A stretch of DNA of 64,000 bases, taken from NCBI RefSeq assembly GCF_000353285.1, contig NZ_KB731325.1, positions 11,006-75,005 on the forward strand, read 5' to 3'. Within the stretch, counting starts at the first letter, position 1. The number at the start of each line of letters is the position of its first letter. This DNA comes from Leptolyngbya boryana PCC 6306. GTDB lineage: Bacteria > Cyanobacteriota > Cyanobacteriia > Leptolyngbyales > Leptolyngbyaceae. The position numbers and the translations under genes are program-made. Under the pieces are notes generated by a model. It saw nothing but the letters and a program-made list of their open reading frames with translations. It ran no database searches and had not been told where the DNA came from. Positions 38,911 through 55,148 of the stretch are shown piece by piece.

Positions 38911-39531
38911 ATGGCCACTCTCGGTATAACTAAAGCGATTACTAACCTTAGTGAAGCTCATTCAAGACTGGGCGTTTCGCCAAGCTTGGACGCGCTAACT
39001 TTCTTCACGGAGTGGAAAGGGACACTACCTGCTTTGACTGATACCGAACGAGCAAGGCTTGATCATCTCAAGCAGCGTTATCTTTACTATGCTGACAGCG
39101 GAGCAATTACAGAAGGCACAGTGAACCTTATCCTGCTGTCTCCCTTACTGGAGACCCTCAACTTCATCGATCCGCCTTACCAAGTTCGCAGCGAAAAATA
39201 TGTTCGGTTTGAGATTGAGGATGGAGACACCCAACTGGATGGATTGATCGATGCCTTAATTCTTCAGGATCGTCTCTGGCTCATTCTCATCGAGAGTAAG
39301 CGGTACGGGTTTAGCGTCAGGCAAGCACTCCCACAAACGCTTGCCTATATGGTAAGTGCACCAACTTCTCCGGTGTTCGCGCTTATCACGACTGGAGAAG
39401 ACTATTTATTCGTGAAGTTCGATCGTGACTCTTCCCGCTACGCTCTATCAGATAAACTCACTCTGAGTACCGTCGAAGGCAATGAGCTGCATGTTGTTGC
39501 ACAGATCTTAAAGCGATTGATCAACTCATGA
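38911..39531 (+). CDS. Orphan HsdR-N-like PD-(D/E)XK nuclease
   Basis: 206 residues with the fold of the N-terminal nuclease domain of type I restriction R subunits: QVRSEKYVRFEIEDGDTQLD (D110), GLIDALILQDRLWLILIESK (D114, E128, K130), followed by ALPQTLAYM. The helicase/translocase of HsdR is absent. Stand-alone versions are frequent in cyanobacteria and usually annotated as restriction endonuclease subunit R. No methylase partner is nearby. It lies 430 bp from the distal end of CRISPR array 1. Confidence 0.75.
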   Translation: MATLGITKAITNLSEAHSRLGVSPSLDALTFFTEWKGTLPALTDTERARLDHLKQRYLYYADSGAITEGTVNLILLSPLLETLNFIDPPYQVRSEKYVRFEIEDGDTQLDGLIDALILQDRLWLILIESKRYGFSVRQALPQTLAYMVSAPTSPVFALITTGEDYLFVKFDRDSSRYALSDKLTLSTVEGNELHVVAQILKRLINS

Positions 39532-39958: not shown

Positions 39959-40357
39959 TTTTCCACTCAATTGTGGTTCCCAACGAGTGAGAACGATATC
40001 GCGGATCCACTGATGGATATCATTGAGGGCACTGCGGTTTCCATTCAATTGTGGTTCCCAACGAGTGAGAACCATTACCGACCCTAATTCGGGAGAAGGA
40101 ATCAACATCGTTTCCATTCAATTGTGGTTCCCAACGAGTGAGAACTCGAACCTATAACCCTGCTAATGGAAAATGGCGTATGTTTCCATTCAATTGTGGT
40201 TCCCAACGAGTGAGAACAAGTGCATTTGGCTTGCCTATTAAAGGTGCAATGAGTTTCCATTCAATTGTGGTTCCCAACGAGTGAGAACTTGATGCAATCG
40301 CGACCGTGGCGCAACTGGAAGGTTTCCATTCAATTGTGGTTCCCAACGAGTGAGAAC
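39959..40357 (-). CRISPR. CRISPR array 1 (6 repeats, 5 spacers)
   Basis: 36-bp repeats beginning GTTTCCATTCAATTGTGG and ending CCCAACGAGTGAGAAC on the plus strand, at 39959, 40037, 40110, 40182, 40253 and 40322. The leftmost is degenerate (two mismatches), which marks the leader-distal end, so transcription runs right to left. On the transcript the repeat ends AATGGAAAC, and its 5' part folds as GTTCTCA/TGGGAAC. Spacers are 33-42 bp, none repeated that I can see. Confidence 0.95.
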
Positions 40358-40560
40358 GGTCGGAGTCTGAAACGCTCTATGTGAAAGCATCTCAGACCTA
40401 TATTTTCGCAGGGGTCTGATTCATCTGTCAATTATTGATATTCAATATCAATAATTCAAACAAAAAACGGCTGAAACTTCCTCCTAGCAAGCTATTTGGG
40501 AGGGTCAACGAAAGAATCAAGCTTTCAGCGATTGTCTGACCCTCCCAACTTTTGAAATAA
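40358..40560 (-). promoter_or_regulatory. Leader of CRISPR array 1
   Basis: Conserved with the leaders of arrays 2 and 3. A TGAAAC motif lies about 10 bp from the last repeat, a CAAAAAACGGCTGAAAC block follows, then a 12-bp inverted repeat (40496-40507 with 40537-40548) whose loop begins CAACGAAA. The remaining DNA to 40762 has no gene. Confidence 0.75.
40430..40456. repeat. 27-bp palindrome in leader 1
   Basis: AATTATTGATATT (40430-40442) and its exact complement (40444-40456) around a single C. It is absent from leaders 2 and 3. Confidence 0.8.
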
Positions 40561-40762
40561 TCTATGGTCTTATGCTCGAGAGCATTCTTACTAAGCGATC
40601 GTTAGGATACATAGTTAAGACACTTACTTAGAAAAGGCGCTAGAACACAATACAGCTTCAAACATTACATGACAAAAGTGCCTGTTAGCTGCCAGTAAGT
40701 CACTCCTAATCAAAACGGTTCATAGAATTTATAGCGCGGCATCAATGTTGATATTAGGCAGA

Positions 40763-42286
40763 GCTTTCATTCAATTGTTTGCCCCCATCAATGGAGACCT
40801 GAGTCAAGAGGCTAGGAAAGTTGCTTCAAGAATTATGGTCGAGTGTTTCCATTCAATTGTTTGCCCCCATCAATGGAGACAATTTCGTAATCATCCGACG
40901 ATTCGACGCACGATCGATGGTTTCCATTCAATTGTTTGCCCCCATCAATGGAGACAACAGAAATCTTGGCGGACTTGATGACTTGTTTGGGTAGGGGTTT
41001 CCATTCAATTGTTTGCCCCCATCAATGGAGACTTGCAATTGGACAGCTCATCAAAAATCTCAGTTTATTCAGCAAATTATTCAAGTTTCCATTCAATTGT
41101 TTGCCCCCATCAATGGAGACTTGAGCAACGATTAGAAGCCACCCGGATGTTGATTGAAGGTTTCCATTCAATTGTTTGCCCCCATCAATGGAGACCGGAA
41201 GACATCCAACATCTTACGCTCATGCGTAACCAGTTAAAGTTTCCATTCAATTGTTTGCCCCCATCAATGGAGACCCACTGCGATCACTACGGGATTGTCC
41301 CCGGAGGTAAGTGTCTGTGCGTTTCCATTCAATTGTTTGCCCCCATCAATGGAGACGTACCACAAGAAAAACGCTAGAGATCCATGTATACAGCAAGTTT
41401 CCATTCAATTGTTTGCCCCCATCAATGGAGACTCAGAAATCGAAGCTTTGATTGGCTCCTCTCGTAAAGAGGTGGAAAGTTTCCATTCAATTGTTTGCCC
41501 CCATCAATGGAGACGCGTATTATGAGGGATTGACAGAGAAGAGGGGCGATCGTGTGTTTCCATTCAATTGTTTGCCCCCATCAATGGAGACCTCACATTT
41601 TGAGCAGCTTCCTTATATTTCTCAACAGGAATACAAGTGAGTTTCCATTCAATTGTTTGCCCCCATCAATGGAGACCACCGTATGTTGCTGCTGGCGCAG
41701 CTTACCCCCCAAATTATGTTTCCATTCAATTGTTTGCCCCCATCAATGGAGACGTGGAGAGAATATCTTGGTGCGTATGGTATCAACCCTGACGTTTCCA
41801 TTCAATTGTTTGCCCCCATCAATGGAGACAGCCAGTGAAATTGGAGTTGTTTGGCTGGGATTAATCCCGGGTTTCCATTCAATTGTTTGCCCCCATCAAT
41901 GGAGACTTAGGTAATAAATATCAGCTTTCTTTTGTGGGTGATCTTATGTTTCCATTCAATTGTTTGCCCCCATCAATGGAGACAACCCTTCGAACCTGTT
42001 CCTTCTACTTTAGAAGAAATGGTTTCCATTCAATTGTTTGCCCCCATCAATGGAGACAAGCTAATAAGCATTATCACGATAATGCAAATCCAAACCTTGT
42101 TTCCATTCAATTGTTTGCCCCCATCAATGGAGACACTGTAGAAGGAATTCAATGGGCTGGTAAAGTATGCTCGTTTCCATTCAATTGTTTGCCCCCATCA
42201 ATGGAGACGAAGCTGAGCTTAATGCTTTCTTTACTAAAGAAGCGACTCTTGTTTCCATTCAATTGTTTGCCCCCATCAATGGAGAC
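40763..42286 (-). CRISPR. CRISPR array 2 (20 repeats, 19 spacers)
   Basis: 36-bp repeats beginning GTTTCCATTCAATTGTTTGC and ending CCCATCAATGGAGAC on the plus strand, from 40763 to 42286. The first copy (40763-40798) differs at two positions, marking the old end. The leader is at the right, so the array is read from the minus strand. On the transcript the repeat starts with a GTCTCCAT/ATGGGGGC stem and ends AATTGAATGGAAAC. cas2 lies just beyond the leader. Apparent open frames inside are translations of the repeat. Confidence 0.97.
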
Positions 42287-42477
42287 CCCTCCTATTGAAA
42301 CCTATACCCTGCTTGATGTCTAGGCTCGGTTTGCGAGGGTCAAGCAAAAAACAAAAAAAATGCGCTCTCTGACTTCCTAAAAAAACGCTGAAACTCTTAT
42401 TACAAAAGGCTGCGAGGCTCCCAACGAAATAATGAATCTTCCAAGCAAATCTCCTGAGCCTCGCAGCAAATACGACA
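42287..42477 (-). promoter_or_regulatory. Leader of CRISPR array 2
   Basis: Starts with CCCCTCCTATTGAAAC next to the last repeat, then CGGTTTGCGAGGGTCAAGC, an A-rich stretch, and a perfect 12-bp inverted repeat GCTGCGAGGCTC (42409-42420) / GAGCCTCGCAGC (42456-42467), 35-nt loop. It abuts the end of cas2. Confidence 0.75.
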
Positions 42478-42756
42478 CTAGACGATCGTTGATCCCGGCG
42501 GTTCCACGATTTCCACTCCACCCCAAACCTCAACCTGCTGCAACATTTGCTGCGAAATCGGATACATCCGCACACTATCCTCCTCGATCTTAATGCGCTG
42601 CTGCAATCGCTTCCGAAGCTCTTTGAACTTCACAGCCGAAAGTGCACATTCAAACACACTATATTGCACCCGCTGCCCATATCCTTCCAACAAATCCGCT
42701 ATCTTCTTCCGCCGCTTATCAGACGGAATATCATAGGTCACTACATAAATTAGCAT
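42478..42756 (-). CDS. cas2: CRISPR adaptation protein Cas2
   Basis: 92 residues. The ferredoxin-like fold begins MLIYVVTYDIPSDKRR, with catalytic-position D9, and continues GYGQRVQYSVFEC, the standard Cas2 block. It forms the Cas1-Cas2 integrase that inserts spacers at the leader end. It lies 16 bp after cas1 on the same strand and ends next to leader 2. Length is normal. Confidence 0.97.
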   Translation of the reverse strand: MLIYVVTYDIPSDKRRKKIADLLEGYGQRVQYSVFECALSAVKFKELRKRLQQRIKIEEDSVRMYPISQQMLQQVEVWGGVEIVEPPGSTIV

Positions 42757-42772
42757 CTATCCCGCTTCCACT

Positions 42773-43750
42773 TCACCGAATCAGATAAGGCGAATACAAA
42801 CAACTCGGATCATACACAAACTGCTTATAAGCCCTCACCTGCTGCGATAGTAAATTCCAACGCGGCTGCTCCTCGACAGACTCTTCCATCCGTTGCACAA
42901 AAGCCTGTAAAAACTTCCGCCGCCCCGATTGATTCAAATAGCATCCGCCGTCATGGTACTCAAAATCATCATCTGCACTTACCAGCCCACGATTCACCAA
43001 ATACAGCACTAGCGAATCCACGATCGACGATCGAAATTCCTCAATCAAATCTGATGCGAGTGCTGCATGACGATCATGCCCCTGATGCAAACAGCCCCAG
43101 TAAGGATCTAATCCTTGAAGCTCAATCAACGTCAGCAAATGATTCCATAACACCTGATATCCAAAACTCAGCATCGCATTGACCGGATTGCCTGGTGGAC
43201 GGCGCGATCGCGCTAAAAATACAAATCCCGCTCCACTCAAACATTCACCAAATGCAGAAAAATAGCTTGCTGCTCCTGCTCCCTCTAATCCCATCAATCG
43301 CGCGATCGATACCGCTTCCCCTGCTTGCTGTACTAAATATGCCAAGCTTTCGATCGCCAAAGCTGTTTGTTCAGAAGCTCGTCGCCGTTGCTGCCGCATC
43401 AAAATTACTCGGCTATTTTTCAACTTTGCTTGCACAATAATTCGGGCTGTTTGCAGCTGAAGCTCTGGTGATAGTAATTGCTGATATCGTGATAATTGCC
43501 GATAGCCTTGAGTAATTGATAGGACTCGTCCATAGCACTTTCCCATGCGAGACAGATATGCGATCGCAATGTTTCGCTGCAAGCAAGCACGAATAACCTG
43601 AGTTGTGACTTGGGATTGACCAAAAATTAGAATCTGCTCTAGCAGTGGCAACTGAACTTGATCCAGAATCGTTTCACCTCGTTTGATCAAGACTGATTCT
43701 TGTCGCAGTGATAGATAGCAACCCTGGTGAGAAACATAGAGCGTTTTCAC
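42773..43750 (-). CDS. cas1: CRISPR integrase Cas1
   Basis: 325 residues. Metal-binding active-site residues are present: E156 in LMGLEGAGAA, H222 in GCLHQGHDRH, and D234/E237 in LASDLIEEFR. No reverse-transcriptase or Cas6 fusion is present. It is flanked by csx18 (12 bp upstream) and cas2 (16 bp downstream), the usual cyanobacterial order. As the only cas1 in the window it probably serves all three arrays, whose leaders are alike. Confidence 0.97.
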   Translation of the reverse strand: MKTLYVSHQGCYLSLRQESVLIKRGETILDQVQLPLLEQILIFGQSQVTTQVIRACLQRNIAIAYLSRMGKCYGRVLSITQGYRQLSRYQQLLSPELQLQTARIIVQAKLKNSRVILMRQQRRRASEQTALAIESLAYLVQQAGEAVSIARLMGLEGAGAASYFSAFGECLSGAGFVFLARSRRPPGNPVNAMLSFGYQVLWNHLLTLIELQGLDPYWGCLHQGHDRHAALASDLIEEFRSSIVDSLVLYLVNRGLVSADDDFEYHDGGCYLNQSGRRKFLQAFVQRMEESVEEQPRWNLLSQQVRAYKQFVYDPSCLYSPYLIR

Positions 43751-43762
43751 GACTGCGTCCTA

Positions 43763-44023
43763 CTACCGATATCGATCCACATTGCTGCTTTCTCGTCTGC
43801 GAAGGTCAGCAGTTGGAGGTAAATTACGATCGCGCTGCATTGAAATGACGACACGATCGACGACAGTTCCGGTGGCAAAAGTTGCGATCGTGACAAGCAG
43901 GGTGTTGATGATGACGGCTGCTAATCCTAATGGAGCAATCAGCAGAATAACTAAGGTTAAGGCTCCGCTGATTCCGGCAATCGAGGCATTGCGAACTTGT
44001 AGGGCGCGATTTGAAAGATACAT
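43763..44023 (-). CDS. csx18: CRISPR-associated membrane protein Csx18
   Basis: 86 residues, two hydrophobic segments (ISGALTLVILLIAPLGLAAV and NTLLVTIATFATGTVV) and a basic tail. The sequence pattern NRALQVRNASIAG...LIAPLGLAAVI matches Csx18, a small membrane protein encoded beside cas1 in cyanobacterial type III loci; its role is unknown. It is first of the csx18-cas1-cas2 transcript. The membrane location suggests a tie between type III signalling or adaptation and the membrane. Confidence 0.8.
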   Translation of the reverse strand: MYLSNRALQVRNASIAGISGALTLVILLIAPLGLAAVIINTLLVTIATFATGTVVDRVVISMQRDRNLPPTADLRRRESSNVDRYR

Positions 44024-44407
44024 GAGGTTTTTCTGTAGATGATCATTGTCTGTGCTCCCTGATCAAATTGCGAAAGATAGAGTGATGCGATCGCGGGTGG
44101 GAAAAATTGTTGTACAGCGATCGAACTAACTGGCGCAGGTTCTAGTCAATGAGGTGTTTGTATTGAGAGAGACCCTGATCGTTCTAACTGCGCTTTCGCC
44201 AAAGGTATTGTAGTGGCAATGCGGGAAACTGGATAAATTTGTTACATCAATGTTACTTAGATCTGGTTTGGCTGATTGTGACTGAAAGGACGCCTTGTAA
44301 GGGCTTGATTAGAGAATGGGCTGGTAGATGAAAATGCTGGCTCAGACGTTTTTGAGAATCAGTATCGCTACCATTCATTTGATCTATAGAGTAATTCTCA
44401 ATGCTCA
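44024..44407. promoter_or_regulatory. Region between array 3 and csx18
   Basis: 384 bp, no gene. It must contain the promoter of csx18-cas1-cas2 unless they are read from array 3. I see no confident promoter motif. Confidence 0.4.
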
Positions 44408-47400
44408 GTTTCCATTCAATTAATTGCCTCTATTAAAAGAGACTCTTATGACCATCGAAAGGCAGAATTACATCAATTCGATTCGTTTCCATTCAATTAA
44501 TTGCCTCTATTAAAAGAGACCAACATTGAACAGGATGCAGACACAATCCTGTTTATCTAGTTTCCATTCAATTAATTGCCTCTATTAAAAGAGACATCAA
44601 AGAAATTAGATCAAGCTAGAAAAGATACAGGTTTCCATTCAATTAATTGCCTCTATTAAAAGAGACGCATCAATTTTATTGGCTCTGGTAATAGCAATGA
44701 TCGTGGTTTCCATTCAATTAATTGCCTCTATTAAAAGAGACTGTAGCTTTACTTTCAGAGCATCCATTATTTAATATTTCAGTTTCCATTCAATTAATTG
44801 CCTCTATTAAAAGAGACTGGAGGTAGATATTAAATGCCAGTAATTAACAATAATGTACTTCTAGAGTTTCCATTCAATTAATTGCCTCTATTAAAAGAGA
44901 CCTCGTATGGTGGAGCGTTTGACTACTACCTTCTTAGGTTTCCATTCAATTAATTGCCTCTATTAAAAGAGACCTCAGATCTTAATTCAGATTCTTGATC
45001 TTAGATTCAGATCTAGTTTCCATTCAATTAATTGCCTCTATTAAAAGAGACACTCACGGCACCGAAGATCAACTTCGAGCAATACAAGTAGTTTCCATTC
45101 AATTAATTGCCTCTATTAAAAGAGACATTCGCTCTGCGTTTGTGTCCAGTGAGCAATTTGCGCGGGTTTCCATTCAATTAATTGCCTCTATTAAAAGAGA
45201 CTTGTGATGCAATCTTGGCACTCATAATCTGCACATCTTTCATGTTTCCATTCAATTAATTGCCTCTATTAAAAGAGACACTAAAACAATTAGATTTTGC
45301 GTTCTGTTCTTGGAGTTTCCATTCAATTAATTGCCTCTATTAAAAGAGACCTCCCCACGTTTGAGGCTAAGACATGTGTGCTGTGCTGGCGTTTCCATTC
45401 AATTAATTGCCTCTATTAAAAGAGACTGAAAGACTAATTAGTATTGCTGCTGATACAAATTTGGTTTCCATTCAATTAATTGCCTCTATTAAAAGAGACC
45501 AGATAAGCCTTTATCACCCAATCTATTCGATAAAAACCCATAAAGTTTCCATTCAATTAATTGCCTCTATTAAAAGAGACCGGGTACACCTTCTATTGGA
45601 TACAAGCTTGTGATGTTTCCATTCAATTAATTGCCTCTATTAAAAGAGACGTCGCAATTCGCCGCAAGCTTCGTTGCCTGAACTGTGTTTCCATTCAATT
45701 AATTGCCTCTATTAAAAGAGACAAAACACTCGAACAAGTTGGACTCGCTTTGAACTTCAGTTTCCATTCAATTAATTGCCTCTATTAAAAGAGACCCAGG
45801 AATTAGCCGAAATCAAAGCGGCTGCAAGTGAGTTTCCATTCAATTAATTGCCTCTATTAAAAGAGACACCGCCGCAAGTAAGAAGTCTTTCGCTGATTAA
45901 TGAGTTTCCATTCAATTAATTGCCTCTATTAAAAGAGACCTAGAGATGGGACATGCAGGGGATGAGGTATTTGACGAGCAGTTTGAAGTTTCCATTCAAT
46001 TAATTGCCTCTATTAAAAGAGACATGCCTATTTGGAAAATCTTTGGTAAGCAGAACGCTAACCGTGTTTCCATTCAATTAATTGCCTCTATTAAAAGAGA
46101 CTTGATCCTATCTATTTGGATGCAAATGGCAACTTTGATCCATTCCGTTTCCATTCAATTAATTGCCTCTATTAAAAGAGACTACATATAGGTGGAGCGC
46201 CCGTCCCCCCGTGTGGGTGGGTTTCCATTCAATTAATTGCCTCTATTAAAAGAGACTACAGTCGATTCAAACGCCCGATCAGCTCCCTTTACCCAAGTTT
46301 CCATTCAATTAATTGCCTCTATTAAAAGAGACTCACGCTCGAAGTGATCACCACTTACTGAACTGCGACCTACGAATGCATCAAGTTTCCATTCAATTAA
46401 TTGCCTCTATTAAAAGAGACTTGCTAGCGGATTAGAAACAACGGTCACGAACATAGACAGAACTGTTTCCATTCAATTAATTGCCTCTATTAAAAGAGAC
46501 AACAATGGTTATGGTTTAGAATCTGACACCGCAGTTGATGGTTTCCATTCAATTAATTGCCTCTATTAAAAGAGACTTTCCAGCTAGGCTTCTAATTCCA
46601 GGTCGAGAAAAACAGCGTTTCCATTCAATTAATTGCCTCTATTAAAAGAGACGCAAATCCCCTGACACCTTGTCTGTCAGTTATGGCAAGGTTTCCATTC
46701 AATTAATTGCCTCTATTAAAAGAGACATCGAGAGCGATGTATCAATTGCCAAATCGCTACAAACCAACGTTTCCATTCAATTAATTGCCTCTATTAAAAG
46801 AGACTCCATGACCACCGGAATGCCCTCAAAGACGGGGAACATCCGCGGTTTCCATTCAATTAATTGCCTCTATTAAAAGAGACAAGTTATTGAGTCAAAA
46901 ATGATTCTTTCTGAAGGGCGTAAAATGTTTCCATTCAATTAATTGCCTCTATTAAAAGAGACCATTCTTGAAGTTTCAAAGCAAAGGCACTAAGCGCTTC
47001 ATGTTTCCATTCAATTAATTGCCTCTATTAAAAGAGACCCGACCTTCAGTAAAGGATTTGAAGCTATGAAAGAGCTTTACAGTTTCCATTCAATTAATTG
47101 CCTCTATTAAAAGAGACTAGAATATGGGGGGTGCACTAATGCAGATGGCATTCTCTGGTGAGTTTCCATTCAATTAATTGCCTCTATTAAAAGAGACATC
47201 GAGACGTTGCAGCGGAACGGAAGACAGGGAAGAGGTTTCCATTCAATTAATTGCCTCTATTAAAAGAGACCTTAAAATAAGAATTAAAAAGTAGCTGAGT
47301 AAGTTACAAATGGTTCAGGTTTCCATTCAATTAATTGCCTCTATTAAAAGAGACCCCGATCACGCCACAATCACGCCACAATCGTAAACTGAGAAGTTTC

Positions 47401-47578
47401 CATTCAATTAATTGCCTCTATTAAAAGAGACTTGCTGCGCGTTGGGGTTAGTAGTCAGCCGGATCGTAGGTTTCCATTCAATTAATTGCCTCTATTAAAA
47501 GAGACCTGGCTCTATGTCCGTTGCTTCTCGTTACGTTCTCGAGTTTCCATTCAATTAATTGCCTCTATTAAAAGAGAC
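44408..47578 (-). CRISPR. CRISPR array 3 (42 repeats, 41 spacers by count)
   Basis: 36-bp repeats beginning GTTTCCATTCAATTAATTGC and ending CTATTAAAAGAGAC on the plus strand, very uniform from 44408 to 47578. The leader is at the right, so it is transcribed leftward. On the transcript the repeat starts with a GTCTCT/AGAGGC stem and ends AATTAATTGAATGGAAAC, very like the Synechocystis CRISPR3 (III-Bv) repeat. It is the longest and most homogeneous array, hence probably the most actively expanding. It lies directly downstream of the cmr operon. Confidence 0.97.
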
Positions 47579-47800
47579 CCCTTCCATTGAAACTCAATCC
47601 CCGCTTAACGTCCAGCAGCGGTTTGCGAGGCTCAGTCCAAAAACAAATAATTTCATCAACTTTAACCCCAAACAATGCGGCAAAACCCTTATCCCATAAG
47701 GCATCGAGGCTCCCAACGAAACAATCACCCTTTCAGCCAAATCGCCCCAGCCTCGCACCCCCTCCATCTCAAAACTTATCCCCATCAAACTAAACGATCG
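47579..47800 (-). promoter_or_regulatory. Leader of CRISPR array 3
   Basis: Starts CCCCTTCCATTGAAAC by the last repeat, then CGGTTTGCGAGGCTCAGTCC and an inverted repeat CGAGGCT (47705-47711) / AGCCTCG (47749-47755) whose 37-nt loop contains CCAACGAAACAAT. Layout is shared with leaders 1 and 2. It separates the array from the CARF-HEPN gene. Confidence 0.75.
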
Positions 47801-47855: not shown

Positions 47856-49307
47856 TTATAGTTGAGAGATCGCCCTTTCTATTTTCTGATGCACCTTCAC
47901 AAGTAAACTGGCTTCTTCAAGAGAGCTAAAGTTTTCTCCACAGATGAAGTTTAAACACTTCAACACCCTCAGCTTCCAATGACCTTCAGGATCTTGTTTC
48001 CATTTTGGCTCATTCGGTGACTGCCAGTTCTCAAATACTTTTTCTTGTCCTTCTAAACCTTTCAACTGATGAAACAAGTCGTTTCTTTTTTTAAAGACTA
48101 GGTTTCCAAATATGAAAATGTCAGGAGTTGTATTTTGCTTGAGGTTTTTAGTCACATCCACGCTCTTCTTCACGGTTAGAAACCAATAGAGATCCTCTCC
48201 ATAAGCATTGAGATTTCTATCCCACCTCTGATTTTCCTCGGATCTAGGATGTTTGGTCTGCTTGATTTCATCACCATAGAGTACATTACTCCATTGCCGG
48301 AGCAGACCTTCTACTGACCGAAAGCTGTGAAACATTGCCTCAACAGTATTGCCCTGCTTGAGACGAACAAATCCTAAGTAAGCTGATTCATAAGCTGTCC
48401 ACCACCAGTTTTCTAAAGTTGTACGCGATTTAGCAAATTCAGCAAGCTCTATATCTGCTGCTTGCTGGAGGTGTTCAGCAAACCTGTCGAACTTGGCGTA
48501 GTTCCATTGAATCGCAGCTTCTAACAAATTCGCGACTTCAGCTTGTAAATAAGGTGCTAGTAGAGCTTTCACTCCAGAGTAGTCATACCTTTCTAGCAAA
48601 GCTTTTGCTTCCTGAGTCTGAAGTCCGCGCAGGTAAGTGGAGCGAGAAATCATACGAGTCTGTTCAGGACAGTACTCATTGCTCACCACAAACTCTACAT
48701 TTGCCCTAAATCGAGCAAGGCTACAAAACTGAACCGCTGAAGAGATCGCTGGTGTTCCTGCCTGATGACTAATATAAACTGCCGTTGGTTCACCTGAAAG
48801 CTCTTTGAGCGTAGAACGAACTAGATCTAACACAAAGTTCCAGTCATCTAGCCCGAACTCACCCTTCTGTGGGGCAAGCACTTTCAAAACCACCTCCACG
48901 GCAGGAAAATGCTGCTGAAAGTAACGCTCAAGAATAGGCTGTAATTCGCTTGTATCTTGCCAATAAGGGCATTTATAATCATCACGCTGGTTCTCATCAA
49001 AAATATAACTTTGATCAGTTGTCAGTAAAATGATCTGATCGATTGCCTCATCCTTGAGTTTGATCGAGAACTCCTTTAAGAGCGGAAATTCTAGCGCATT
49101 CCAAATTTCGTCAGGATATGCTTGGTAAGCTATCCCTAGCACCCTTGGTGCAATCCGATAAGGCTCTGCCGAATCCCGAATAACTTGTGCAGGCTCAAAA
49201 GGTAAATTATGACAGTCTTTCCTAATCACACGATACCAATCGCCCCAATCATCATTCGTTCTAAGTTGAACATCACTACTCCCAATCGTGACAAGCCAGA
49301 TTTTCAT
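47856..49307 (-). CDS. CARF-HEPN ribonuclease (Csx1/Csm6-type)
   Basis: 483 residues. The N-terminal half is a CARF domain (MKIWLVTIGSSDVQLR as strand 1; YISHQAGTPAISSAVQF as the ligand-binding motif at about 178-194). The C-terminal half is helical with the HEPN RNase motif RNDLFH (R408 and H413). Proteins of this family are activated by cyclic oligoadenylate made by Cas10 and then degrade RNA nonspecifically. It is the last gene of the cmr operon, 12 bp after the preceding gene, so signal producer and receiver are co-expressed. Confidence 0.88.
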   Translation of the reverse strand: MKIWLVTIGSSDVQLRTNDDWGDWYRVIRKDCHNLPFEPAQVIRDSAEPYRIAPRVLGIAYQAYPDEIWNALEFPLLKEFSIKLKDEAIDQIILLTTDQSYIFDENQRDDYKCPYWQDTSELQPILERYFQQHFPAVEVVLKVLAPQKGEFGLDDWNFVLDLVRSTLKELSGEPTAVYISHQAGTPAISSAVQFCSLARFRANVEFVVSNEYCPEQTRMISRSTYLRGLQTQEAKALLERYDYSGVKALLAPYLQAEVANLLEAAIQWNYAKFDRFAEHLQQAADIELAEFAKSRTTLENWWWTAYESAYLGFVRLKQGNTVEAMFHSFRSVEGLLRQWSNVLYGDEIKQTKHPRSEENQRWDRNLNAYGEDLYWFLTVKKSVDVTKNLKQNTTPDIFIFGNLVFKKRNDLFHQLKGLEGQEKVFENWQSPNEPKWKQDPEGHWKLRVLKCLNFICGENFSSLEEASLLVKVHQKIERAISQL

Positions 49308-49319
49308 GTTTACTATCGA

Positions 49320-51017
49320 TTACCAAAGTTGCTTGAAGTCTGTAAAGTCTTGAAGAAATTTTAGAAAATTAGCCGTTTTTTGAATCTCATCTTTGTCGCC
49401 TGATCGATTCGGGAAAATTGTCAGCAGCTCGATATATTCTTGAGTCTCAATCCATTCCTCACCGCGCTTGAGATAGCGCGGATACATCCGATGCCAGAGC
49501 CGCCCAATCTGTTTCATGCTGCCTGTGAGTTCCGATTGTTTAATCGAACTCCCTCTTTTATAATCCTGATGCAGCCACTTGATCGCTATACTATCCTCTT
49601 CCCCATCTGCAATTCTGCCCCAGACTTGGACATTATCTTTACACCAAGCCTCTCGACAAGAATGGTCTGGAGTCTTGCGATTCTCGATCTCGTTTAGCCA
49701 AGAAAACTCTTGCGCTTTTTGATAAAATAGGTCTAGAAAGCGAGTAATACTTACCAACTTATCATCGCTAACTGGAATATACAGCTTTCGAGAAGGCTTC
49801 GTAAATGTCCAATGGCACCCGATCATCTGCCGTTTGTAGCGTGGTAAAAACAGTCGATGATCGCTTCGTCGCCAAGATCGACCAAATCCACCTAGTAACA
49901 TCGAAAACTTAACTAACCGAATCACAAAGTTCTTCAGTTCATCTCGCTGCTCCTGCCGTAAGCCATCTTTCATCACGAGTACATTCAAGATTGCGTCACC
50001 AGTCTCGTAAACAGGCACATGATTGTTCGGATTGCCTGCTGCTACCCATTCATCTAGCTCCAACTCAGGCGCACTGAAGGCAACTCCCAATAGCCCCACC
50101 GTTGCACTTTCCCCTTTGCCAATTCCTCCCCAAAGCTGCTTGATCAAGTGATTAACCGTTTTATGATCAGTGATGCCATGAAATAGACGATGCGTGTGTC
50201 CGCGTAGGGCAGCTTTGAAACCGTTCGGGCGAAACTCGCCTTCGAGATCAAGCCGTCGAGAAGCAATTCCCTGTCCTGATAGACCTACAGAGATAAGTTT
50301 ACTTTCTCCATGCGTTTTGACTTGTCCATACCCTGCACTAACGCGAGAACCAATCCCTCGCTCTAGGGCTTTTTCCCAAATCTTCCAAATCTCTGTCCAC
50401 TCTGATTCGAGTACTGGCTCTGTACTAGAAATTCCAAACACAAAGGTTGGTTGATGGAGAGAAATTAGCACTTTGGGAGTCTCATGGCTTAACTTCGATC
50501 CACTGACCTGCCAATTTGCTTGAGGATGAACGATATCTACCATCGAATTCTTGAGCCAAGCACCATCTTTAGGATAGCCGCCATGAAACCTCAAAATACC
50601 AGGATGAACTTCGCCTTCTTGAGCGCTGCCGCCACAATATCGGTTAACACGATCAGGATGAAGTTGGCGACAAGCTCGTAGAAATGCGCCCTTCATACTG
50701 GAGCCTGGAAAGTATGCCCAACCACGTTCCCCAATTACAGGGCGAATGACTCCTTCATCCTGTCCGCTATTCGTCACCATTCGCCAAGTAAAGATGTATT
50801 CCTTGGACTTGCGAACGTCATTGCCAAAATTGGGGACTGTATCAACATCGCAGGACTCTTGCCATTGTTCTGCCCAGTCGTAGGCTTGTTGGCGTAGAGT
50901 CTCTTTCCTAACTGCAAGTCTCTCTGCTTCTTTCTTGAGATCTTTCACCTGATGAATTAGAGATCGACCTTGTACCTGAGCCTGAAACATCAACGGCACA
51001 TAATCGCTATCGGGCAT
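49320..51017 (-). CDS. Cmr6/Cmr1-type double RAMP protein
   Basis: 565 residues, roughly twice a normal RAMP. The N-terminal half has Cmr6 features: FPGSSMKGAFLRACRQL, then GILRFHGGYP and the glycine-rich GIGSRVSAGYGQV near 240. The C-terminal half starts a second RAMP-like unit (FKAALRGHTHRLFHGITD, LWGGIGKGESATVGLLGV, MLLGGFGRSWRRSDHRLF) resembling Cmr1. There is no separate cmr1 in the operon, so a fusion is the simplest reading. It would cap the 3' end of the crRNA complex and control target RNA entry. Overlaps cmr5 by 11 bases. Confidence 0.75.
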   Translation of the reverse strand: MPDSDYVPLMFQAQVQGRSLIHQVKDLKKEAERLAVRKETLRQQAYDWAEQWQESCDVDTVPNFGNDVRKSKEYIFTWRMVTNSGQDEGVIRPVIGERGWAYFPGSSMKGAFLRACRQLHPDRVNRYCGGSAQEGEVHPGILRFHGGYPKDGAWLKNSMVDIVHPQANWQVSGSKLSHETPKVLISLHQPTFVFGISSTEPVLESEWTEIWKIWEKALERGIGSRVSAGYGQVKTHGESKLISVGLSGQGIASRRLDLEGEFRPNGFKAALRGHTHRLFHGITDHKTVNHLIKQLWGGIGKGESATVGLLGVAFSAPELELDEWVAAGNPNNHVPVYETGDAILNVLVMKDGLRQEQRDELKNFVIRLVKFSMLLGGFGRSWRRSDHRLFLPRYKRQMIGCHWTFTKPSRKLYIPVSDDKLVSITRFLDLFYQKAQEFSWLNEIENRKTPDHSCREAWCKDNVQVWGRIADGEEDSIAIKWLHQDYKRGSSIKQSELTGSMKQIGRLWHRMYPRYLKRGEEWIETQEYIELLTIFPNRSGDKDEIQKTANFLKFLQDFTDFKQLW

Positions 51018-51435
51018 CGGTTTTGCCTCCCACTCCTTGCTTAGGCTTCTTGTACCGCTGTGTCCACCAGATTAAGCTATCGCAGAGTTCGATTAGAATA
51101 GCTAATGCAATTTTGCGCTGTTCTTGGTCAAAGTTCCAAAGTTTATCCGTCATTGTTTTGATTGCAGCTGAATTTTCTGTGCTGACGGGATCGTTAGGAA
51201 TTTGAATTCCAGCTTGTCTTAGGATTCGACACAATTCATCCCAAGTTTCTTTCCAATAGTCTGCTTTGTCTTGATTTTCTCGCTGTAGGCGCAGATGTTC
51301 ACCCCAGAACCGCTCCAGTCCGTAGGCTGTGGTAACGCGCATCTTGTGACTTTCGTTGAGTACATCCTTTTTATCTCGAAATTTCAGCACCAGATCATGA
51401 GCGCAACGATCAATTTCATACATTTTCCAACTCAT
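51007..51435 (-). CDS. cmr5: Cmr5, small subunit of type III-B complex
   Basis: 142 residues from the ATG at 51435, which has AGGAGG upstream and overlaps the cmr4 stop as ATGA; the frame upstream of it is not coding. All-helical protein (MSWKMYEIDRCAHDLVLKFR; AIKTMTDKLWNFDQEQRKIA). Size and position fit the filament-lining small subunit Cmr5. Sequence conservation of this subunit is always weak, so position carries much of the call. Confidence 0.8.
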   Translation of the reverse strand: MSWKMYEIDRCAHDLVLKFRDKKDVLNESHKMRVTTAYGLERFWGEHLRLQRENQDKADYWKETWDELCRILRQAGIQIPNDPVSTENSAAIKTMTDKLWNFDQEQRKIALAILIELCDSLIWWTQRYKKPKQGVGGKTDAR

Positions 51436-52298
51436 GCAGCCACCTCCTGAGAATGAGCAACCGTGTTGAGATTTTTTAGCGTAATTTGACAATTACCAAA
51501 ACCGATCGACTCTAAACCACCGAGGTAGATCTCACTGGTTTCAATACCGTCCCCAAAAGGCTGCCAAGGTGTTGTAGCTGTATTGCGAATCGCGATCGGA
51601 AAGACCATAATTGTTCCTTCAGGTAACGCTTCCGTATTGAAGAACCCGCCTTTATCAACTCGTTTCTCCCTGTCCATCAGACGAACTCGACTTTGCCGAT
51701 ATAGCGCCATGTCGTGAATCATGCCAATTTCATCATCTCCAACCACGACCGCAGGTAACTGCTCGCCGTTGGGGAACCAAATTGATAGGTCTTCGGTTTT
51801 ATCTAGTGTCAAAAAGCCAAAATTAAAAAAGAGCTTTTTCTTACCTTCAACGTTCAGGGTTTTTAGTGTTGACGAACCCACATACTTTAAGCGATCGATT
51901 GCTGAGGTTTTAATGCTTTTAAGACCATCAACAGAATTGCCAGCAATGCGTTGATAGCGTTTCAATAACTTGGGACTGCTCACCCACACAATTGGTTGCC
52001 CCGGACAAAATACAGGCAGCCACAACAAGGAAGCATACTCGAACTTAACGATTGATTCACTTGTTGTATCTGATTCACCGGTCTCTGCTGGACTCCCATA
52101 CCAATAGTTTGCATCCCCCGACTGATCACGTCGCATCTCAGAGCGGAATCGTCCCCGAATTGAGCTGCCTGGAAGAATTCCAGTCTGAGTAAACTGATCT
52201 CGAAAAATCAGGTTCAAATTTCCGCTTTCTTCACCAGCTGTTGCACCCACATGTAGCGGAGCCAATGTTTCAATGATGCCGTAGGTCTTTTTATACAT
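51432..52298 (-). CDS. cmr4: Cmr4/Cas7 RAMP, backbone and target RNA cleavage
   Basis: 288 residues from the ATG at 52298, which overlaps the cmr3 stop as TAATG. The start MYKKTYGIIETLAPLHVGA and ILPGSSIRGRFRSEMRR are the classic Cas7-type RAMP opening. FGFLTLDK, then LYRQSRVRLMDREKRVDKGG, then GLESIGFGNCQ ends with the glycine-rich loop. Cmr4 forms the helical backbone and cuts bound RNA with an acidic loop; D's in RRDQSGDANYW could serve. Four-base overlap with cmr5. Confidence 0.88.
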   Translation of the reverse strand: MYKKTYGIIETLAPLHVGATAGEESGNLNLIFRDQFTQTGILPGSSIRGRFRSEMRRDQSGDANYWYGSPAETGESDTTSESIVKFEYASLLWLPVFCPGQPIVWVSSPKLLKRYQRIAGNSVDGLKSIKTSAIDRLKYVGSSTLKTLNVEGKKKLFFNFGFLTLDKTEDLSIWFPNGEQLPAVVVGDDEIGMIHDMALYRQSRVRLMDREKRVDKGGFFNTEALPEGTIMVFPIAIRNTATTPWQPFGDGIETSEIYLGGLESIGFGNCQITLKNLNTVAHSQEVAA

Positions 52299-53320
52299 TA
52301 TGCAACTCCTTGAATCTGAATCGGTAAACACAATCCACTGCCTAACTTCTTCATCAATCCTTTGTCCGGAAACCAATCATCGGGAAAATCCCACCAGCAT
52401 CTATTGAGCGGATGCTTGAAGACATAGACTGTTCCGACTGGCACTGCGTAGCGTCCCCGGCTCAATCGTCCTCGTTCTGTTGTGCGATTCCCTAATCGAT
52501 AACGGCAAGGGGTCGCTTTATCTGTTAGCATCTGCATTCCTTCTCTCGGAAACTCAGGATGCCGAGGATAGCGGTAAGACAAATTATGAGACCCCCAAAC
52601 CCCAGGCGTAATTAGTGCACAGGCACGATCAATTGGAGTTTGTAGCAATTGATGAATAATGCTAGACGGTGATAAAGACTGGCTGTTTATCTCCACCATA
52701 TGCCCCTCTCCCCCAAAGCGATACCAGCCCTCTGGGAAAGCATGAGTAGAAAGATATACCAAGCAATAATCTTCATCCATCTGCACTGCATTTTCTAGAA
52801 ATAATCCATCTTGATCCAACACATGCCGCTCCTCCGCTTTCATCTGAGGATGCAAAAACGAAACATATTTCCAAGGTGCTTGAGCTGCTTCTCGATTCGT
52901 CCGAATTTGGCGCGTCTCTCGATTCCAAGCATCAATGCTTTGCCAGGTGTAGAAGGCTTCTATATCTTCTTTTTGTAAATCTCTCTGCCATCGGTGTTTT
53001 TCTAACCGCCATTCATCTTCCTGTTCTTCTGCAATAATGCGGTGTCGAGGAACAGGAACATAAAAAACTTCTGGTTGATCGCGCTTTGCCCAGAAGGGAC
53101 CAGCGATATGGAGATTGTGCTTAAGTGTGTCATGAGGTGCGATCGCACCTTTCAGCGAATGATTGGCGCTAAAAAATAATCCTGCTACAGTCGATGCATC
53201 AGGAGGAAACTTTGCTCCTGAGCGTCCGACCAGATTCTCAGGTGACAGGAATGCTCCAGCGCTGCCATACATTAAACCTAATGGCGCAATCGTAATCAGA
53301 TGTTGGAACATAGTTGCCAT
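52298..53320 (-). CDS. cmr3: Cmr3/Cas5-type RAMP
   Basis: 340 residues. HLITIAPLGLMYGSAGAFLS and FPPDASTVAGLFFSANHSLK form the first RAMP unit, and GWYRFGGEGHMVEI with the later LGSGLCLPIQIQG the second. Cmr3 binds the 8-nt 5' handle of crRNA next to Cas10. The gene overlaps cas10 by 25 bases; the second ATG (MFQHL, 53311) is an alternative start. Length is normal for Cmr3. Confidence 0.85.
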   Translation of the reverse strand: MATMFQHLITIAPLGLMYGSAGAFLSPENLVGRSGAKFPPDASTVAGLFFSANHSLKGAIAPHDTLKHNLHIAGPFWAKRDQPEVFYVPVPRHRIIAEEQEDEWRLEKHRWQRDLQKEDIEAFYTWQSIDAWNRETRQIRTNREAAQAPWKYVSFLHPQMKAEERHVLDQDGLFLENAVQMDEDYCLVYLSTHAFPEGWYRFGGEGHMVEINSQSLSPSSIIHQLLQTPIDRACALITPGVWGSHNLSYRYPRHPEFPREGMQMLTDKATPCRYRLGNRTTERGRLSRGRYAVPVGTVYVFKHPLNRCWWDFPDDWFPDKGLMKKLGSGLCLPIQIQGVA

Positions 53321-54924
53321 CCTATTTGAATTAAACTATCAATCCATTGCACGATAGCAAGTTCAGAATTGCTCCCTACTAGATACTTCCATCGCTTGTC
53401 TTGCGGGTTTTTCTGAATTGCTTTTCCGGCATCGTCGAAATAGAAGTTAAACAACTGAAGCGCAAGATAAGAATCTGCATGGTATTGATCTGTCTCGGTT
53501 AGCCGAATTGCATGACGGGCTTTAAGCTGTTCCCAGTCGCTGTAAAGATGCGTCCAGTTGAGCTTTGCATCTCCCCAAGTTCGACCTTCGCGATCTTGGT
53601 ACTTCGTTAAGATCGATAAGTAACTCCAGGGGCAAGTCCATTGGATAAATTGACCGTTGTTGAAAACAATGCGAATCGTAACTCGATCGCGCCCTAAGCT
53701 CTTCGCTTGCTTCTCAGCTTCTCGACAGTGCTGCAAGATGTCCCGCTGTGGCACACTATGTCCTGCCCAAACGAATCCAACACTGTAAGTGTGCTCAATC
53801 TCTAAGTCATGCCACAATTCAGTTTTCAGAGTTTGCCATTGGTCTGGCAGCTGCATTAGCCAATTTAGCGCATCAATCGGCTTTACCTGTTCTGGTGCTG
53901 GTTCACCCGATTGATTTTGTTCGCTATAAATGACACCTAGAAAATCATCGCCCCCAGCATAAATTACCCGACCTTTGCCTTGAGGAAATTGAGTTGAATC
54001 GTCTTGAAAAGTTTGCCCCCAACTCCGCATCTTATGGCTAAATACTTCAAGTTTTTCATCTCCGTAGCGTTGAACAATGTCTTTCAGCTTGTTCCCAATT
54101 TGATCGCCATCTCCCATAAACCAGCCTGTCCAATATCCTGGTTCGCGGTAGATGTCTTTGAATCCCTCTGCTAAATCCTCGAGTCCAATTTTCTTAGCAA
54201 GTTTAGGTAAGGTTACTAACCGCTTGATTAACTCAGGTAGGCTTAGTCTCTCGTTTGCAGCAATGAATTTTCCTTCTGGTTCTACACCTGCATCAACAAT
54301 CTTGCCACACCGTTGATGGGGATCATCAAGTACCCAAGCTAATTGCCGATAAAATTCTTTGAGTTCCCGCTTCTCGGCTTCACTAAGTAGATGCTTTGGA
54401 TCACGAACTTCTCCTAAGCGATGCCACGCGATCGCATCTGTTCCCGTCAAGCTTGAACTTTCTCCTGTCCAATTGATGCCGACCCAATCTCGCTTGAGCT
54501 TGCGCCGTTCCAAATCATTCATTGCTGCGCTGGGATCATCTCCCTTTCCCCAAAAAATCTCCCAAGTGTACTGTTTCCAGCGCAACCATTCTGCGTCCCA
54601 ATGATAGAGATCGTGCACGGGAACATTCGTCTCGATCCATTCCCGACACGGCTGTAATACCTTGTCCCAGGCTTGAATTAAGACCTTTTCAACCTCGTTG
54701 CGCGGAAACAGTCCCTGAATCAAAATTCGATTCGGCATTCCTTCCTGAACGTGGATTAATGCAGGTGAAATGACTTTTAGTTCTGGTGTTTGATCAGCCG
54801 CATTTGCCAGACTTTGGCTGAGATAAGACAAAATCAACGAAGCTCCAAACAAATCTCGCAGTTTCCGGGACTTTTCGATAAACCCTTGAACGGGAGCGAA
54901 GCTAATTGCAGTGTAAATCGGCAT
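53296..54924 (-). CDS. cas10: Cas10 (Cmr2), short form without HD domain
   Basis: 542 residues from the ATG at 54924 (MPIYTAISFAPVQGFIEKSR, the normal Cmr2 opening); a longer TTG start at 54981 is less likely. Palm motifs: GWFMGDGDQIGNKL (D272, D274) and YAGGDDFLGV with GGDD at 324-327. The latter is the cyclic-oligoadenylate synthase site and is intact. No N-terminal HD nuclease motif exists, and the protein is much shorter than usual Cmr2 (800-1000). The complex probably cannot cut DNA itself and should act through cOA and the CARF-HEPN nuclease. Confidence 0.9.
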   Translation of the reverse strand: MPIYTAISFAPVQGFIEKSRKLRDLFGASLILSYLSQSLANAADQTPELKVISPALIHVQEGMPNRILIQGLFPRNEVEKVLIQAWDKVLQPCREWIETNVPVHDLYHWDAEWLRWKQYTWEIFWGKGDDPSAAMNDLERRKLKRDWVGINWTGESSSLTGTDAIAWHRLGEVRDPKHLLSEAEKRELKEFYRQLAWVLDDPHQRCGKIVDAGVEPEGKFIAANERLSLPELIKRLVTLPKLAKKIGLEDLAEGFKDIYREPGYWTGWFMGDGDQIGNKLKDIVQRYGDEKLEVFSHKMRSWGQTFQDDSTQFPQGKGRVIYAGGDDFLGVIYSEQNQSGEPAPEQVKPIDALNWLMQLPDQWQTLKTELWHDLEIEHTYSVGFVWAGHSVPQRDILQHCREAEKQAKSLGRDRVTIRIVFNNGQFIQWTCPWSYLSILTKYQDREGRTWGDAKLNWTHLYSDWEQLKARHAIRLTETDQYHADSYLALQLFNFYFDDAGKAIQKNPQDKRWKYLVGSNSELAIVQWIDSLIQIGWQLCSNI

Positions 54925-55148
54925 GACAGTGCTGAAGCAATTCTCCGTGATATTACAGACATAGTCCTGTAACTTTAACAAAGATTCTCAAGGCCGTTCC
55001 ACAAATAGCTAATATTTATACTAACTTCATCAAACTGGCTGAAACCTAGAAAAATAGAGGAATCCAACAACTAAATATATTTGATATAGAATACTTTCTT
55101 TAGATTGACAGCGAAAACTATCCGTATAGATAAGTTAAATTGAGCTAC
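54925..55148. promoter_or_regulatory. Divergent promoter region cas10 / WYL regulator
   Basis: AT-rich. On the plus strand TTGACA (55105-55110) is followed 16 bases later by TAGATA (55127-55132), a fair promoter for the WYL gene. The cas10 promoter must lie here too. A WYL repressor would naturally act on this region. Confidence 0.5.

Follow-up and report, generated by a model that had tools for sequence, protein, structure and literature searches.

In many types of CRISPR (clustered regularly interspaced short palindromic repeat) systems, it is an open question how Cas1-Cas2 locates the repeat next to the leader in the absence of integration host factor (IHF). The closest described case is the cyanobacterial type I-D leader, a long leader in which three conserved motifs (I, II, and III) raise spacer uptake (Kieper et al. 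2019, as presented in the review PMC10212523); one of these motifs is likened there to an integrase anchoring site, Synechocystis having no IHF homologue. Here, we describe a comparable element in the leaders of three CRISPR arrays of Leptolyngbya boryana PCC 6306, found in a stretch of 64,000 nucleotides (contig NZ_KB731325.1, positions 11,006 to 75,005; from here on, the window), and in leaders adjoining related cas1 genes of other cyanobacteria. It consists of a short word that changes in step with two residues of Cas1, which suggests that Cas1 itself reads the word to site new spacers. Judged by the description in the review only, a long leader, three motifs, and a Cas1-Cas2 context are shared with motifs I to III, whereas our leaders belong to type III modules and carry one word three times, inverted and direct, matched to Cas1 residues. 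The integrase anchoring sites and upstream motifs that work with IHF in types I-E and I-F are, from the parts of the sources consulted, also located in the leader ahead of the first repeat, where they position Cas1-Cas2; in contrast, the word found here is fast changing, occurs three times, tracks Cas1 residues, and has its most distant copy about 174 nt from the repeat (commonest spacings summed). In type II-A, leader sequence groups likewise mirror Cas1 groups, but the published excerpt deals with a single motif at the leader end and a correlation at the clade level (PMC5382924), whereas here the sites are distal and triple, the match goes from residue to base, and the changes are recurrent. 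Finally, leader structure or motifs and Cas1 binding control acquisition in Sulfolobus type I-A, where, according to the portion seen of PMC9456107, Cas1 binds a leader-proximal stem-loop without sequence specificity in vitro and Csa3a acts at a distal motif; in the leaders described here it is sequence that is conserved, not pairing. Published functional support, in the form of spacer uptake, appears from these partial sources to come from type I-D only.

The minus-strand repeats of the window end in GAAAC, so the arrays run toward lower coordinates, each with its leader at the high-coordinate end. Read in the array direction (minus strand), each leader contains three copies of a motif of ca. 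11 nt, of which S1 is inverted, S2 is direct, and S3 is direct and array-proximal. They are located at 42456..42467 (S1), 42409..42420 (S2), and 42331..42343 (S3) in leader 2, at 40537..40548, 40496..40507, and 40403..40419 in leader 1, and at 47749..47755 (S1 core), 47705..47711 (S2 core), and 47622..47636 (S3) in leader 3. The first-pass annotation, made from the letters alone, had described S1 and S2 as the right and left arms of an inverted repeat common to the three leaders, different in sequence but always paired, and had taken this as selection on structure (cruciform, RNA hairpin, or dimeric protein site). The inverted repeats are present exactly as described, with loops of 29, 35, and 37 nt in leaders 1, 2, and 3, respectively, while the third copy, S3, had been overlooked. 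This copy stands about 50 nt ahead of the first repeat and is seen in leaders beside relatives of the window Cas1 in named cyanobacteria. None of 300 dinucleotide shuffles reached the 12-bp perfect arms of leaders 1 and 2; the 7-bp perfect arm of leader 3 was reached by 7% of 300, so this leader is not significant alone and its weight comes only from its homologues. The differences in loop length reflect the extent of chance pairing rather than spacing, and the element looks like a hairpin because one of its three motif copies is inverted. Leader 1 deviates in part: the first part of its word (TGACCC) fits, both arms differ from the usual word at TCCCAA, and S3 has diverged. Its variant word, TGACCCTCCCAA, is perfectly mirrored in both arms (leader 1 elements, 40403 to 40548), and its array has just 6 repeats.

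When leader 2 was compared by BLAST with 291 cyanobacterial genomes, only 4 gave a match, its own included, and leaders were therefore collected beside Cas1 genes. The first set started from 79 loci, which gave 66 leaders, of which 62 were aligned (L067_11848, L092_15038, and L107_12843, array-internal by eye, and L033, a duplicate of L038, were dropped; L107_12843 has, by eye, none of the sites). The second set went from 161 sources to 107 with a Cas1 of at least 300 amino acids and an array (39 had no array and 15 were short), and to 90 leaders after removal of duplicates; window leaders 1 and 3 are not among these 90. Along the 62 leaders we ran a covariation scan similar to R-scape (G-test with average-product correction; the null came from 40 replicates in which Fitch substitutions were scattered randomly over the leader tree). 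The strongest 18 of 22,791 column pairs all fell among S1, S2, and S3, with an S2-S3 pair first; nine had E values below 0.1 against the tree-based null and the 18th had 0.85, some of the pairs being one or two columns out of register. Several versions of the word exist at S3 (GAGCCTCGC, GACCCCCTCGC, GACCTTCGG, GATCGGTCGC, and TATCCGTCGC), and the version of a given leader tends to recur at all three of its sites.

The covariation of the two arms noticed at the outset is real. With 48 aligned leaders, chosen by hand and including two from the window, the S1-S2 score was 0.410 at the true register against a shuffled mean of 0.138 (none of 500 shuffles reached it) and at most 0.144 for slid pairings. 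That compensatory changes between S1 and S2 beat both shuffles and slides is what selection on pairing, in an RNA hairpin or a cruciform formed by the two copies, would produce, and mismatches of the G.U type outnumber those of the A.C type (57:25 for S1-S2 and 48:17 for S1-S3, counted without the poorly registered window leader 1). This excess may point to pairing or to mutation biased by strand; we tentatively ascribe it to the latter, leader composition outside the sites being T 0.326, A 0.234, G 0.262, and C 0.178. However, covariation is not confined to columns that could pair. It is strongest between S2 and S3, which have the same sense and so cannot be covarying through base pairing, and in the 48 leaders S1 covaries and pairs better with S3 (0.508, with 86.9% of cells paired) than with S2 (0.410 and 78.6%). 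Over 886 cells from the 90 leaders, agreement was 717 for S1 and S3, 686 for S2 and S3, and 657 for S1 and S2, the hairpin pair thus being the least kept. Poorly paired arms, the kind of case that the first-pass annotation had named as a refutation, also occur: 21 of the 90 leaders have 6 or fewer complementary positions out of 10 between S1 and S2, although 4 of these (L070, L203, L204, and L253) have gaps or a doubtful alignment. In Microcystis L082 and L083, S1 still equals S3 and S2 does not, while in L092 S2 resembles S3 and S1 has departed. No Rfam family matched at its gathering score between positions 39500 and 48000, the inverted repeat lies outside the one pre-crRNA with a published start, and the motif covaries with residues of Cas1 (see below for both). 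Selection for pairing is therefore a very improbable account of the element, and of the structural options put forward in the first-pass annotation it is the protein site that points the right way. A possible H-type pseudoknot spotted by eye, with the loop GCTGAAA and a downstream TTTCAGC, was absent among the pairs listed by the covariation scan.

The spacing of the three sites is nearly fixed. S2 and S3 are separated by 79 to 81 nt in all 90 leaders adjoining cas1, and S3 is followed by the first repeat after 51 to 53 nt in 88 of them (52 to 53 in 86). S1 and S2 are 42 to 44 nt apart in 88 of the 90, the other two values being 3 and 58 (a truncated leader or a doubtful alignment), and their centers are 43 to 45 nt apart in all 62 aligned leaders, window leader 1 being imperfectly registered. 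A conserved, near-fixed distance from the first repeat is what is expected of a leader adaptation motif or integrase anchoring site. It is also one of the features left unexplained, together with S3 and the match to Cas1, if the inverted repeat were a terminator or stabilizer that ends the cas1-cas2 mRNA. The position of leader 2 invites such an explanation, as its inverted repeat begins 10 nt past the stop codon of cas2 and is followed by TTTT, and many homologues directly follow cas2; window leaders 1 and 3, on the other hand, are not located after cas2 and have no T-run past the arm, and we consider a role in ending the mRNA barely credible.

The sites seem to lie upstream of the array promoter. 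In CRISPR3 of Synechocystis 6803, which has the same repeat family and whose leader (L117) carries all three sites, the mapped transcription start precedes the first repeat by 1 nt (Scholz et al. 2013, PMC3575380, consulted in part), placing the inverted repeat outside that pre-crRNA and the sites upstream of its promoter. Going by this published start, and not by L. boryana data, the element is not transcribed with the array as a leader RNA hairpin would be. The same order probably applies to the other leaders: a TATAAT-like box (at least 5 of 6 positions) is present within the final 24 nt in 42 of 62 leaders, compared with 48 of 558 control windows. Transcripts of the cas genes may nevertheless read through the sites. 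From their position, this class-level test, and the Synechocystis start, we would place a −10-like element of array 2 at 42294..42301 (GTTTCAAT on the minus strand, beside the first repeat) and, on the same basis, that of array 3 at 47586..47593 (minus strand). By eye, many type III leaders contain a stretch like CTTGCTGGGTAAGGGTTT twice, after S2 and again at the likely promoter region, and it looks as if a unit of 40 to 50 nt had been duplicated.

The candidate reader of the word is encoded next to leader 2. The cas1 gene (42773..43750, minus strand; 325 amino acids, TIGR00287 match above cut-off) and cas2 (42478..42756, minus strand; 92 amino acids) are both upstream of this leader, cas2 directly so. 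We compared leaders with Cas1 and Cas2 columns in 59 pairs (without window leaders 1 and 3 and L068_2169, the first because of its poor register) and with Cas1 columns only in 90 pairs; a separate alignment of Cas1 comprised 45 proteins. The top 7 of the 11,517 Cas1/Cas2-motif pairs in the 59-pair scan joined Cas1 residue 254 to motif position 4 and its neighbor and residue 325 to position 11 (positions 5 and 12 in the numbering of that scan), recurring in S1, S2, and S3. In the 90 pairs, the top 6 of 10,404 were again residue 254 with position 4 (in S3, S2, and S1) and residue 325 with position 11 (in S3, S1, and S2). At S3, residue 254 and the base at position 4 combined as R-A in 37 leaders, R-T in 14, S-C in 16, K-T in 8, N-G in 5, and T-C in 4, plus six single cases; residue 325 and position 11 combined as R-C in 74 and D-G in 12, with Q-G, S-A, H-C, and R-A once each. 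In the window Cas1 both residues are arginine (R254, codon at 42989..42991; R325, the last residue, codon at 42776..42778; minus strand, computed from the open reading frame coordinates).

These changes fall on the same branches of the tree. All six changes of residue 325 occurred on branches with a change of the motif base, of which there were seven (random mean, 0.72; maximum of 4 in 10,000), and when residue 325 was reduced to Asp or not Asp, each of its four changes was on the branch of one of the five changes between G and not G. Residue 254 changed 22 times; the consensus motif base shared 14.8 of these changes, against a random mean of 6.7 and a maximum of 14, and the base at S3 shared 12.5, against a mean of 6.9 and a maximum of 13. 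With a score that penalizes variable columns, residue 254 ranked first for position 4 and residue 325 first for position 11. Rules derived from these associations (R with A or T, S with C, and K with T for residue 254; R with C and D with G for residue 325) were written down before further genomes were collected. Among 32 hold-out leaders, whose Cas1 was less than 90% identical to those of the 53 training loci, the rule for residue 254 held in 20 of the 22 to which it applies (none of 5,000 label permutations reached this) and that for residue 325 in 29 of 30 (label permutation, 0.0078), the other 2 of the 32 carrying different residues at 325. The hold-outs are not fully independent, since L190, the locus of the window itself, had already been used for discovery and since L240 closely resembles L241, as L242 does L243. 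Other partners were tried as well. Cas2 was rejected as the motif reader, its best pair with the motif ranking only 11th in the 59-pair scan, and the CRISPR repeat was a weaker partner of residues 254 and 325, with raw G values of at most 36 and 31 compared with 136 and 82 for the motif.

The copies could instead be sites of another DNA-binding protein, for example a factor of the host that bends DNA, a nucleoid protein, or one that regulates the array promoter, so that the match to Cas1 would be indirect. Their place upstream of the promoter would suit such a protein, and for type I-D a host DNA-binding factor has been proposed to act at motif II, with the IHF of type I-E as the model (in the part consulted of PMC10212523). 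A host-wide factor, however, should not switch specificity between leaders alongside two Cas1 residues, and Cas2 columns, scanned together with those of Cas1, rank lower. We regard such a protein as unlikely, if more plausible than selection for pairing.

We favor, with a probability of roughly 0.7, that the word repeated three times is a set of DNA sites read by the Cas1 integrase, by which spacer insertion would be guided. According to this proposal, the three copies in a leader (two direct and one inverted), which stand at near-fixed distances from each other ahead of the array promoter, are one recognition word that the Cas1 of the adjoining adaptation module would read. Residue 254, which follows the invariant Asn253, would read position 4, where Arg goes with A or T, Lys goes with T, and Ser goes with C; residue 325, at the C terminus, would read position 11 (Arg with C and Asp with G). 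A shift in the specificity of Cas1 would then move all three copies, and this would be the origin of the arm covariation. If occupied simultaneously, the copies might dock the leader on the Cas1-Cas2 integrase or wrap it around the complex, so that new spacers enter beside the first repeat. In the AlphaFold model of Cas1 (mean predicted local distance difference test score of 88), residue 254 comes directly after the helix formed by residues 240 to 253 and residue 325 ends a coil tail; the fold matches Cas1 structures, among them the type I-C and Synechocystis Cas1-Cas2 complexes.

Besides the mismatch excess mentioned above, several points weigh against a direct reading by Cas1. Against the tree null, no single Cas1-motif pair is significant alone (E values of 0.17 to 4.5 for the top six in 90 pairs and 0.75 to 8 for the top seven in 59 pairs), because the motif classes follow clades; the case rests on the recurrence over three sites, the shared branches, and the hold-out. 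Residues 254 and 325 were chosen post hoc, with phylogenetic clustering, and if shared branches are simply counted, residue 256 scores a little higher than 254 (13.2 versus 12.6). The rule for residue 254 failed in 2 of the 22 hold-outs, 10 of the 32 carry other residues at this position, and Arg occurs together with A as well as with T. Contact of residues 254 and 325 with leader DNA is predicted rather than seen in a structure. As the C-terminal tail of Cas1 senses the protospacer adjacent motif in type I-E (according to a review, seen in part), it could serve a different function in these proteins. Window leader 1 departs from the usual spacing, with 91 nt between S2 and S3 instead of 79 or 80, about 11 bp more than in the other 61 leaders.

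The same layout of three copies was found in type I-D leaders. We compared by window matching the leaders beside Cas1d (NCBIfam TIGR04093) and that of CRISPR1 from Synechocystis 6803; 62 of 71 sources had an array, and 58 leaders were used (L140, L145, L151, and L175 were dropped). As a group, they exceeded permutation, although the match of the distal S1 was not convincing in every leader. The best 10-mer match between S3 and S2 (direct) averaged 8.83 within the same leader versus 7.73 between leaders (5,000 permutations reached at most 8.19), that between S3 and S1 (inverted) 8.48 versus 7.84 (at most 8.19), and that between S2 and S1 8.55 versus 8.20 (at most 8.53); controls in the wrong orientation stayed near background (7.71 versus 7.51 and 7.22 versus 7.15). 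In the 45 leaders of the Cas1d covariation, the top of 1,428 pairs with the motif involved the residue after the conserved Asn, the equivalent of residue 254; the rank of this pair speaks for direct reading, its nonsignificant E value of 5.15 against it. Among the leaders listed, Cas1d ends in Lys or Arg, so the association with position 11 comes from the type III leaders. S2 and S3 were 78 to 79 nt apart in 8 type I-D leaders, 99 to 103 in 44, and 112 to 113 in 3 (55 leaders with a match of at least 8). Taking types III and I-D together, the spacings form classes of ca. 79, 90, 101, and 113 bp, in steps of about 11, or about one helical turn, the class of 90 being one leader; helical phasing of these four classes gave a P value of 0.022, which is suggestive only, as the classes were chosen post hoc. 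By eye, most of the type I-D leaders inspected (L118 and L120 to L189) have an additional element like ACCTTGAAAAC after S3, but in a Synechocystis/Leptolyngbya-like subgroup it comes after S2.

A wider version of the proposal, to which we give slightly less than even odds, is a Cas1-leader recognition code common to types III and I-D, in which residues 254 and 325 would read positions 4 and 11, the copies would lie on one helical face held by the Cas1 subunits of one integrase, and a leader could be retargeted by one or two residue changes plus the matching bases. A search of the literature, which mostly lacked subscription papers, retrieved no match between Cas1 residues and leader bases. 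If the proposal is true, cyanobacterial Cas1 reads its DNA address by itself, through a correspondence of bases and residues that shows in sequence data; the leader would suffice to tell which adaptation module an array belongs to, and orthogonal recording arrays would be possible. There is also a warning here, as arm covariation in DNA can stem from repeated protein sites rather than from structure.

The three arrays, all on the minus strand and with repeats of 36 nt, are located at 39959..40357 (array 1, 6 repeats), 40763..42286 (array 2, 20 repeats), and 44408..47578 (array 3, 42 repeats). The genes at 47856 to 54981 appear to form a type III-B-like system, judging from a Cmr4 match barely above cut-off, a Cas10/Cmr2 match below it, and a weak Csm6 match. 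The last corresponds to the protein encoded at 47856 to 49307 beside the Cmr-type genes, which matches the Csm6 CARF family below cut-off (2.1e-05). The 250 nt around leader 2 matched five records, and over those 250 nt they are identical to four L. boryana plasmid records. Elsewhere in the same genome there is a broken cas1 remnant in two pieces (G000:C1:861134-861576; L271 and L272), one of them with an internal TGA; apart from the window cas1, this remnant was all that matched the Pfam Cas1 family in the genome. The end of a repeat, AATTGAATGGAAAC, stands alone on another contig (G000:C1:1141394-1141407; L001), apart from the three arrays.

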